The position numbers and the translations under genes were made by a program. Shown in pieces: positions 35,468 to 39,087 of a stretch of 39,153 nt of DNA (position 1 is the stretch's first letter; every line of letters begins with the position of its first letter). The notes beneath the pieces were generated by a model. The model saw only the letters and a list, made by a program, of their open reading frames with translations, was not told the DNA's origin and made no database searches. The DNA is taken from positions 1 through 39,153 of IMG/VR virus record IMGVR_UViG_3300049043_000313; one strand, 5' to 3'. The stretch comes from a virus.

Positions 35468-36351
35468 ATGACGACGACGACGGGCCACACGCACTCAATA
35501 CGTTTGGTGGAACGCGCACGACGTGCGCATCGACGACAAGATCCTCCGCGCCTCGCTCGAGCAGGCTCGGGCAGGCCTGGGCAAGCTGGTGCGGCAGCCG
35601 GCAGCTGCGCACTCGGCGATGCGGAAAGCGATGTCGAGACGGCAGCGCGGCCTCGACGCGGCATGGTCGTGGGAGGAGGTCGGCGTCGACGGCGACGACC
35701 TCGTCATCGCCCTCGCAGAGAGCAGCGGCGACGCAGCGGCTCGCTCGTGGTCGGCGAGCGTTCGGCTGACCATCACGGTCAACAAGAAGACGGGCGACGT
35801 CGTTGCGTCGCGACCGCCGATCGACAGCAGCGGCGAGCATGCGGCGGTGCAGGCCCTGCTCAGCCGGTACGCCGTTGAGCGCGCAGAGCTCACGCAGGGC
35901 GACGTGCGCACCATCGCGCTCCGCTGCCTGCTCGACGACGACAAGGGCCGCGGTGTGCGCATCGAGGACAGCGGCAGCATCTACCTGCTCAGCGCGCCGC
36001 ACGACGACATCGTCGCCGACATCAAAGCCGCGTTCGCCGCGTCCGGGCTGCACCTCCGCACCATGCCGGTCTACGCGGAGAGCGTTGCCCAGCTGAGCAG
36101 CGATGTTCGCGAGGGCCTGCTCGGCGAGGTCGACGAGGTCAAGGCGGCGATCGCGAAGTCGACGACCCTGGTCGACGGCGGTGCCAACGTGCGCGCCGCG
36201 ACGCTCGCTGCACGATTCGCCGAGCTCGAAGAGCTGCGCAAGAAGGCGCAGCTCTTCGCCTGGTGCTTGCCGGCGAGCTCGGCGCCGTCGAGGCCGCGAT
36301 CGCCGCCGCGGTTGCTGCCGCGCAATCCGTCACCGACCGCCTTGGAGGTAA
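35468..36351 (+). CDS. DUF6744-like protein, partner of MoxR/VWA (frameshifted)
   Basis: ATG 35468 with GGAGCAGC upstream. After MTTTTGHT and a shift near 35490 it reads TQYVWWNAHDVRIDDKILRA, and from there a clean frame to about 36260. Parts include TITVNKKTGDVVAS, AVERAELTQGDVRTIALRCL, GRGVRIEDSGSIYLLSAPHD and ATLAARFAELEELRKKAQLF. A shift near 36262 leads to an Ala-rich helix (GELGAVEAAIAAAVAAAQSV). I take the stop as TAA 36349-36351. The length and alternation resemble DUF6744 proteins as I remember them. This family call is a recollection, not a proven match. Its position directly before an AAA+ gene suggests joint function. Confidence 0.5.
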
Positions 36352-37526
36352 GCTGTCGAACCTGCGTATCCCCACCGTCGACGAAGCCCGCGCATCCCTG
36401 CAGGCCTCGATCGCCTGGATCAAAAGCACGACGCTCGAGCGCGACCGCATCGTCGACGCACTGGCTGCAGCGATGGTTGCCGGTGAGCACGTGCTGCTCA
36501 TCGGCTCTCCGGGCACCGCGAAGAGCCAGCTCGCGGAGGCGTTCGCGAGCGCTCTCGATGCGCGACTCTTCAGCAATCTCGGCCATCGCTATCAGCAACC
36601 GGACGAGGTGCTTGGGCCTTGGGACATGCGCGCGCTGCAGCAGGAGAATCGCTGGAAGCGGCGCACGGCGAACCGGCTGCCAGAGGCCGAGATCGCGTTT
36701 CTCGACGAGGTCTTCAAAAACAGCGCGGCGCTGCTGAACACCCTGCTCGGCCTCATCAACGAGCGGCGCTTCGAGAACGATGGCATGAAGGTCTACGTTC
36801 CGCTGCGCCTTGTCGTCGGAGCGAGCAACGAGCTGCCCGACGAGCGCGACGGTCTCGGCGCCTTCTTCGACCGCTTCCTCGTGCGCTTCGACGTCAAGCG
36901 ACTGGCCGACCAGAGCAACGTGCGCGAGGTGCTTTTCGGTGGTGCCAAGCCGAAGCCTGCTGTTGCCCGGACCAGCATGGAGGCAATCGGCGTGCTCTCA
37001 CGCGCCGCAGACGCCTTGCCCATCGACGCCGCCACGCAGGACAGCATCATCGCGGTACGGCACGAGATGCACGCTGCCGGCATCGAGGTCAGCGATCGGC
37101 GCTGGCGAAAGGTCGTCGGCTACCTCAGAGCCAGAGCGGTCATCGCTGGCGACGACTGCGTCACCAGCAAGCACCTGCCTGCCAGGTCATCGACTGCTGC
37201 TGGTCGCGCATCGAGGACCAGGTCACGGCGAAGAATCTCGTCGAGAAGAACATCGCTGGCTGGGTGCGTGAGCTCATGCTTGCCGACACGTCGATCGACG
37301 AGCAGATGGCCCGCGCCAGCGATGCAGCAAACAGAGGCGGCAGCCGAACCGCCTCGATCACAGCAATGGCCAACGTCCTCGACGTCGCAATCGACATCGA
37401 GGCGTCGATTGCGGCGATTCGCGTCCGCGACCCGGCCGCAGCAACCGAGTGCGACCGCCATCCAGGTCGCATGAAGCAGCTCCAGACATCGTTCAGCGCG
37501 GGATGGCCGCGCAGGATCACCGATGA
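36352..37526 (+). CDS. MoxR-type AAA+ ATPase (frameshifted end)
   Basis: The domain begins SNLRIPTVDEARASLQASIA. The start codon is unclear: GGAGGTAAG at 36344 is a good ribosome site, but no ATG follows, only CTG 36353. Walker A is GSPGTAKS (near residue 53) and Walker B is IAFLDEVFK (near 115). Between them are the MoxR features FSNLGHRYQQPDEVLGPWD and RTANRLPEAE. Then LLNTLLGLINERRFENDGMK, VGASNELPDERDGLGAFFDR (sensor 1) and FLVRFDVKRL follow. These motifs match RavA/MoxR ATPases, which remodel partners together with VWA proteins. Shifts lie near 37190 and 37485. It ends DIVQRGMAAQDHR at TGA 37524-37526. Confidence 0.82.
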
Positions 37527-39087
37527 CGACGACGATCGCAAGAAGACCAGCCATCGAGCAGGCAGAAGTGCTCGACCCGATTCGCGAAGCCGAGCGCCAC
37601 GATCCGGTGGCCTACGCCGTCAGCGGGACGGCGACGTTCGCCTTGCGCGCAATCGCGCACGACGGAAAGACGGCCGAGCCGATTCGCTCGAAGCCATGCG
37701 CGACTTCGCCGGCCAGATCGAAGAGTGGCCAGCGTTCGTGCGTGAGGTGTTCGGCCGGCTCTACGACCACACGGGCTGCTCCGCCTCGCAGATGTCGACG
37801 CGGTGACCTGGGCCATCGGTGCGGCGAATGCGGCCGAGCGGCAAGAGGGCTGGGATGACCTCTGCGCAGCATGGGGCTGCAGGCCGGTCGATTGCGGCGC
37901 GCGCCACCGAGTCGATTGCTCGAGCAGGTCGCAGACGCGCTGCAGCTCGAAGCTGGAGAGCAGAAGACGGATGGCGAACGCAGCGATCCGCGGCAACGCA
38001 GAAGAGAGCTGCAGCGAGATCTCGAGGCCTGGGAAAACCGACGAAGCCGCCGACCTCGTCATCGAGCAGAGGAACATGCAGGATGAGTGCGGTGCAGCTG
38101 CAGCCGCTCGGCTCGAGATCGACAACCGGCTTCAGAGCAATCGCCACCGGCTGCGCGCGGCGGTTGCTGCTGCTGCACAGCAGGCGAGACACCGAGGCCG
38201 ATCTGCTGCGCGCGCTGCTGCCGCTCGGCTTCTCGCTCGAGGGTCCAAGCTCGCTGGAGCAGCTTGCACCAGGCCTCGCGGAGAAGCTGCGTGTCGACCA
38301 ACGCATCGCGAAAGTGCTCCTTGAAGCTCGGGAGGATGCACGACGCTGCTCGCGGGTCGAAGGCCGTTGGCGAGGGCAACATCGACGTCGTCGGCGTCAA
38401 TGCCACCAGCGACATCTCGACGACGACATCGGCGTTTCGTGCGCGATTCACGTCGCCGGGCCTCATCGGCGACATGGCGCTGCTGGAGATCATGGACGGA
38501 GGAGCCCAGAGCCACGAGATGCGCGACGACAAACCGCGCGAGCGCGGCGACATCATCTACCTCAGCGATCGCTCTGGTTCGATGTCTGGCGACCGCGAGG
38601 TTGCAACGCGCGCGCTCGGCATCGCGCTCATGATGACCGCCGCGGTGGCGAGAAGACGGATCATCGTCGGCACCTTCGCCGGCAGAGGCGACTGCAAGAT
38701 CGACGTCGTTCGGCCAGGCGACACCGCTGCCGCAGCAGCGGCGCTCACCAGCCTCTGCATCGCGGCAAGCCGGCGGCACCGACGTTGAGGGTGCCATCGT
38801 CGCCGCCATCGCGTCAGCGGCGCGCCTGCGGTCGCCGGACATCATCGTCGCCACCGACCGGAGTGTTCCCCCATCTCGCCGCCGACCGACGATGCGCGCG
38901 CTCACCGGCAAGCGGAAAGGAGCGGGCCTGCGAGAGGCGAAGCGCCAGCGCATGATGGCGATTCTCGATGGGGCAGTCGGCGTACGGCCTGCACGGTCTC
39001 AGCCCTGAGTTCTCGCGGGTCTGGTGTGTTGCCTCTGCGGCCGATGCAGCGGCAGGCGTCATGGCCGAGGTCGGAGGCCGTCGATGA
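37523..39087 (+). CDS. VWA (MIDAS) domain protein, MoxR partner (frameshifted)
   Basis: ATG 37523 overlaps the MoxR stop. The N-terminal half is a helical region (EQAEVLDPIREAERHDPVAY, LEAMRDFAGQIEEWPAFVRE, FGRLYDHT, DVDAVTWAIGAANAAERQEG). The VWA domain starts near residue 343 (GDIIYLSDRSGSMSG). All three metal-site elements are visible: D-R-S-G-S, the Thr of GGTDVEGAI, and the Asp of PDIIVATDGVF. The end is AYGLHGLSPEFSRVWCVASA...EVGGRR at TGA 39085-39087. Frame changes lie near 37650, 37795, 37865, 38010, 38090, 38330, 38770, 38855 and 38970. About 520 residues. MoxR-VWA pairs act as chaperone-like machines on metal centres or complexes. Confidence 0.8.

Follow-up and report, generated by a model that had tools for sequence, protein, structure and literature searches.

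A DUF6744-family gene recurs beside two distantly related MoxR-VWA gene pairs of phages

Results

Three genes at the end of a myovirus contig

The DNA analysed here, called the window below, is the whole of IMG/VR record IMGVR_UViG_3300049043_000313, a metagenomic sequence of 39,153 bases with a G+C content of 66%. Judged by its structural genes (Table 1), it is a contig of a contractile-tailed phage (myovirus). A DNA search of the phage collection gave no close relative. Reading frames are interrupted across the whole window. As conserved structural genes such as those for terminase and the major head protein are broken in the same way as the genes described here, sequencing (read) error is more likely than decay as the cause of the frameshifts.

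The set of three genes lies at 35468-39087 on the plus strand, at the far end of the contig, and is divided from an upstream open reading frame (34886-35358) by a terminator-like stem-loop. An earlier note on this DNA had proposed a run of DUF6744-like, MoxR and VWA genes, and all three were found. An ATGA at 39084 (region 39084-39146) provides a further start overlapping the VWA stop, so a fourth gene may follow past the contig end.

Table 1. Features of the window and, in the last line, of five related phage contigs.
Feature	Position	Strand	Evidence
Terminase	3.4-5 kb		
Head morphogenesis gene	8 kb		
Major head protein	12 kb		
Baseplate hub and wedge	26-30 kb		
Intrinsic-terminator-like stem-loop with T-run	35395..35430	+	12-pair stem then CTTTTT; consensus match only
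Gene 1, DUF6744 protein	35468..36351	+	independent family profile, 112.6 bits
Gene 2, MoxR AAA+ ATPase	36353..37526	+	PF20030, 178.9 bits
Walker A GSPGTAKS	36503..36526	+	sequence
Walker B IAFLDEV	36692..36712	+	sequence
ATGA overlap, MoxR stop/VWA start	37523..37526	+	sequence
Gene 3, VWA protein, phage ViaA/NorD-like type	37523..39087	+	VWA family profile pieces
MIDAS motif DRSGSM	38567..38584	+	sequence and profile alignment
MIDAS second element GGT	38772..38780	+	sequence and profile alignment
Retron-type reverse transcriptase after MoxR-VWA	L049:9363-10181; L052:9892-10776; L058:8813-9733; L062:6550-7452; L067:7367-8260		

The main open frame of gene 1 spans 35499-36269, and the last ~90 bases (about 30 C-terminal residues) are in another frame. 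Because of the frameshifts, its exact start and stop are uncertain. We iterated a DUF6744 profile over viral contigs from a protein of Moorella phage MTATph1, itself a match to PF20529 (DUF6744; 5.6e-61), leaving the window out. This profile matched the gene 1 frame over 249 of its 265 positions. The best of 1000 shuffled versions of the gene 1 residues reached 11.8 bits, compared with 113 bits for the real protein. Matches of the window to an alignment containing it are circular and were left out of the evidence. The curated Pfam model (PF20529, 27-bit cut-off) did not match the window even at an E value of 1; two relatives, L041 (54 bits) and L002 (207 bits), pass its cut-off. As the window protein does not itself reach the Pfam model, gene 1 is a diverged member of the family. 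The likeness to DUF6744 proposed earlier thus holds through the independent profile, but it requires intermediates and not a direct Pfam match.

The AAA core of gene 2 (36419-37159) lies in a single frame and gives 279.9 bits with the MoxR family profile. The C-terminal part is frameshifted, with at least two frame changes, and ends with TGA at 37524-37526; the start position is not resolved. Besides PF20030, the protein matches PF07728 (83.9 bits) and AAA_lid_8 (30.7 bits). Both Walker motifs named in the earlier note were located. The nearest solved structures are those of RavA (phmmer 2e-41). The match to PF20030, ‘bpMoxR’, was rejected as a sign of a beta-propeller system, RavA scoring equally high. 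The LARA and C-terminal domains of RavA, present in a Salmonella RavA record, are unmatched in the window MoxR, whose C-terminus is frameshifted.

The ATGA overlap said to couple gene 3 to gene 2 is present. Profile pieces of gene 3 are spread over three frames, with at least four frame changes, the best piece (66.7 bits) lying at 38327-38731. The residues expected of a MIDAS site (DxSxS, T, D) occur as DRSGS, GGT and ATD, in different frames. A complete series of DRSGS, GGT and ATDG had been claimed. The first two elements can be read as such, but the third is ATDRS from 38850 as sequenced and becomes ATDG only upon a frame change there.

Conservation of the gene set in viruses

Scanning with a MoxR alignment yielded 80 viral contigs, or 63 after removal of duplicates and of a separate T4-like CobS-type group. 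An alignment query was required: the window MoxR and the Moorella MoxR as single queries returned no viral contigs. Within the fetched stretches of the 63 non-redundant contigs, DUF6744 was found in 47, VWA in 60 and all three genes in 46; DUF6744 occurs at greater distance in two additional contigs of this sample. Full sets were tabulated for the 46 IMG/VR contigs and Moorella phage MTATph1, and in all 47 the three genes are on one strand. Their order is DUF6744-MoxR-VWA in 30 sets, MoxR-VWA-DUF6744 in 12, MoxR-DUF6744-VWA in four and VWA-MoxR-DUF6744 in one. The adjacency seen in the window could have broken on corrected reads, but intact relatives have it as well. The set also occurs in Moorella phage MTATph1 and in dozens of further viral contigs, which likewise bears out that it is phage-borne and not a host fragment. 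These data support a conserved phage set of three parts, located away from the genes for head, tail and baseplate, whose third member is uncharacterised.

By the same profiles, only five of 80 cellular MoxR loci contain DUF6744 (in Paenibacillus, Alicyclobacillus, Anaeromyxobacter, Oceanobacillus and a Bacillus MAG), and phage-type genes are among their neighbours. DUF6744 scores in the cellular set are bimodal, either above 140 or below 10 bits. On two Sporosarcina chromosomes (L103:5944-11023, L104:5944-11022), MoxR and VWA genes are followed by an SNF2-type helicase, as read from sequence, and then by a conserved gene; this cluster is perhaps another MoxR-VWA system. ‘Phage’ matches from Salmonella, Escherichia and Campylobacter and the contigs L028 and L059 were rejected as cellular RavA. 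Records H2-H7, L028 and L059 are classed as phage or viral but contain genes of the ravA-viaA type from chromosomes and represent host contamination.

Pairwise divergences of the three proteins are correlated (DUF6744-MoxR 0.63, MoxR-VWA 0.69, DUF6744-VWA 0.66), and none of 5000 permutations gave values as high. Correlations of 0.63-0.69 are what co-inheritance would give, and shared ancestry alone can suffice for them. On the MoxR tree, the label for phages with DUF6744 extends over almost the entire phage part, with 12 changes compared with 38.7 for shuffled labels.

Searches anchored on DUF6744

For the reverse test, scans were anchored on DUF6744 alone; an alignment covering the family broadly proved too diverged for scanning the collection. 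Four new contigs of the first branch (L179, L180, L184 and L190) have the same MoxR and VWA genes adjoining. L184 and L185, which scored equally, may be near-copies; contig L181 stops at its DUF6744 gene. A second branch comprises ten contigs (L192-L201) with a diverged DUF6744. In nine of the ten, a different MoxR and VWA pair lies within about 5 kb, on the strand of DUF6744 in seven and on the opposite strand in two. The VWA protein of this branch carries an HExxH metallopeptidase motif in all nine cases, as against 0/63 in the first branch. Since searches with DUF6744 only recovered both the first set and a second deep branch, DUF6744 recurs, by these sequence comparisons, as the third partner with phage MoxR-VWA pairs of two distantly related kinds.

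In halovirus HVTV-1, gp25 is a DUF6744 protein (67 bits, above the Pfam cut-off), and the VWA and MoxR-like genes gp57 and gp59 are 18 kb from it. The genes gp100-104 of this virus were tried as the set and rejected by profile.

MoxR-VWA pairs with other neighbours

Some phage MoxR-VWA pairs lack DUF6744, as in the region of Thermus phage phiFa and in the T4-like CobS group. Among phage MoxR genes without DUF6744, some form small clades in which a different gene lies next to the pair, and several more come from contigs that are truncated or are in fact cellular RavA. In one such clade, of five phage contigs, the VWA gene is followed by a gene for a retron-type reverse transcriptase (Table 1), which abuts or overlaps it in two of them. 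An Rfam search at these contigs detected no retron RNA; in L062, a group I intron is located downstream of the reverse transcriptase. In Aphanizomenon phage CL131, an LPD29-domain protein is encoded directly 5' of MoxR-VWA (L004:758-1600), and L050 has a weak relative of it in the same position. The T4-like contigs L075-L088, which have no DUF6744, were rejected as members of the set. They contain a distinct pair of CobS-type MoxR and VWA genes (CobS/CobT type) with strictly conserved upstream genes.

Predicted structures and gene neighbourhoods

The structural model of the DUF6744 relative from L041 (pLDDT 92) begins with a mixed alpha/beta part, after which come long helices. The model gave no fold match in the PDB below an E value of 0.001, and a PDB search by sequence returned nothing usable; against BFVD, matches were to phage and virus proteins only. 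The most conserved columns of the family are glycines, aromatic and hydrophobic residues, including an RxxGGxYFVP-like segment. The alignment contains no catalytic set of polar residues and no conserved set of Cys/His/acidic ligands. For a VWA homologue (model pLDDT 86), the best PDB match was NorD of the NorQD complex, with the Rea1 MIDAS domain fifth. Both are partners of AAA+ motors.

In other phages, the neighbours of the set are mostly DNA-metabolism genes, among them those for helicases, exonucleases, PD-(D/E)XK proteins, DNA ligase, thymidylate synthase and methyltransferases; further clusters were named, by reading their sequences, as Sak4-like ATPase and RecB-like nuclease. Moorella phage MTATph1 has genes for RNR and a Holliday resolvase close to the set. 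The tally was made over 115 selected neighbours; the 25 commonest families, to which the listing extends, include no structural one.

Discussion

A putative remodelling machine

From the genes, their families and their conserved linkage, we infer a physical complex. A MoxR hexamer would deliver the ATP-driven force for remodelling. The VWA protein would act as its adaptor, the MIDAS site gripping an acidic residue of a partner or client. DUF6744 would be a dedicated non-enzymatic part with an alpha+beta head and a helical coiled-coil tail, which may either carry the target to the motor or be itself the remodelled subunit. The set would be made together with the phage genes for DNA replication and recombination and would most likely act at an early stage of infection, on a nucleoprotein complex or a complex of the host. 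The position of the window set, at the end of the contig and behind the baseplate region, was counted against early timing. The distant DUF6744 gene of HVTV-1 and the phage pairs that lack DUF6744 likewise count against a single machine. We see an even chance that the three genes represent one such phage remodelling machine, with DUF6744 as non-enzymatic adaptor or client, made with the replication genes.

The same proteins could form a virion-assembly chaperone which helps proteins of the tail or head to fold or mature, DUF6744 being a scaffold or client. As a precedent, a 2011 study by Scheele reportedly connects a MoxR-VWA pair, p618/p892 of Acidianus two-tailed virus, with the development of the viral tails. 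The proposal made by the jumbo-phage authors (PMC7824862) points in the same direction, and the metallopeptidase on the second-branch VWA would fit processing. We nevertheless consider a chaperone of this kind unlikely, as the commonest neighbours are DNA-metabolism genes, structural families account for 0/25 of the most frequent ones, and the Hardycor1 pair sits in a replication/accessory module. Similarly improbable is a conflict system, that is a phage weapon, counter-defence or superinfection exclusion with DUF6744 as sensor, by analogy to bacterial MoxR-vWA ternary systems. VMAP systems are indeed built alike, from MoxR, vWA and a distinctive third protein that has no evident enzymatic function, and the neighbours include one CBASS inhibitor Acb3 and one DNA-modifying enzyme. 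However, the first-branch VWA proteins have no recognised effector domain, and PADLOC gave no real match for any of the three proteins, MoxR-IetA reaching 15-18 bits around the P-loop only.

Two further readings are much less probable than these. A chelatase- or NorQD-like machine inserting a cofactor or metal into a metalloenzyme would agree with the NorD fold of the VWA protein and with the annotation ‘porphyrin biosynthesis’ on one viral MoxR-like gene. It is the least probable of all, since the neighbourhoods have no candidate metalloprotein in common and DUF6744 lacks a conserved ligand set. That DUF6744 is functionally unrelated to MoxR and VWA and merely shares a genome region with them would explain its unlinked position in HVTV-1 and the pairs without it. 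This is only slightly less improbable, as the linkage has been kept through four gene orders, great divergence and two MoxR-VWA types.

MoxR-VWA pairs turn up again and again across microbes and viruses of every kind, but hardly any of their viral clients have been identified. A conserved, dedicated partner would offer a direct handle, as a protein to purify or to use as bait, or as a gene to delete in a cultured virus such as Moorella phage MTATph1 or halovirus HVTV-1. DUF6744, a family of unknown function, gains a testable context. The conserved set points to a widespread viral remodelling machine, common among environmental phages and very rare among named ones.

Comparison with known systems

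The earlier note regarded the locus as a candidate for an undescribed system, which goes too far. Viral MoxR-VWA pairs have already been described for Acidianus two-tailed virus (p618/p892), Hardycor1, HVTV-1 and the group 2.2 jumbo phages, the latter with a MoxR and metallopeptidase-vWA pair (PMC7824862, PMC7911831). These jumbo phages (PMC7824862) and the second DUF6744 branch share the VWA-plus-metallopeptidase kind of pair. In contrast to the DUF6744 set, a third partner is not reported for the known pairs in the accessible parts of these papers. In a search of open-access papers, none named DUF6744. The only novelty here is DUF6744 as the third partner, present again with a second, distant type of pair.

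Among cellular systems, RavA-ViaA of Escherichia coli shares the MoxR core, the adjacent MIDAS VWA protein and a ‘DLxRxLPSEL’-type segment before the VWA domain. It differs in the absence of DUF6744 and in being cellular; RavA also has its LARA and C-terminal domains, for which the frameshifted window protein gave no match. The NorQ-NorD and CbbQ-CbbO activases, which work on a host-cell enzyme, resemble the set in the VWA fold, as the modelled homologue matches NorD best among PDB entries. Unlike them, the phage pair has DUF6744 as its neighbour, a protein with no enzyme signature.

The MoxR-vWA ternary conflict systems, with VMAP, iSTAND, FtsH or beta-propeller proteins (PMC7159879), likewise combine MoxR and vWA with a distinctive third protein. 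The phage set differs in having DUF6744 and in being viral. No effector domain was recognised on VWA in first-branch homologues, and a metallopeptidase was in the second branch; the window VWA is heavily frameshifted. The third protein is probably distinct from VMAP-C, iSTAND, FtsH and beta-propeller proteins, to judge from a Pfam scan of DUF6744 relatives, in which DUF6744 was the sole match above the cut-off, and from the PDB fold search, which gave no match. On evenly balanced grounds, DUF6744-MoxR-VWA may constitute a further MoxR-vWA ternary class, carried by tailed viruses that infect bacteria or archaea. A single third component would then serve two distantly related motor-adaptor pairs, and in some lineages the third slot would be taken by an LPD29 protein or a retron-type reverse transcriptase.
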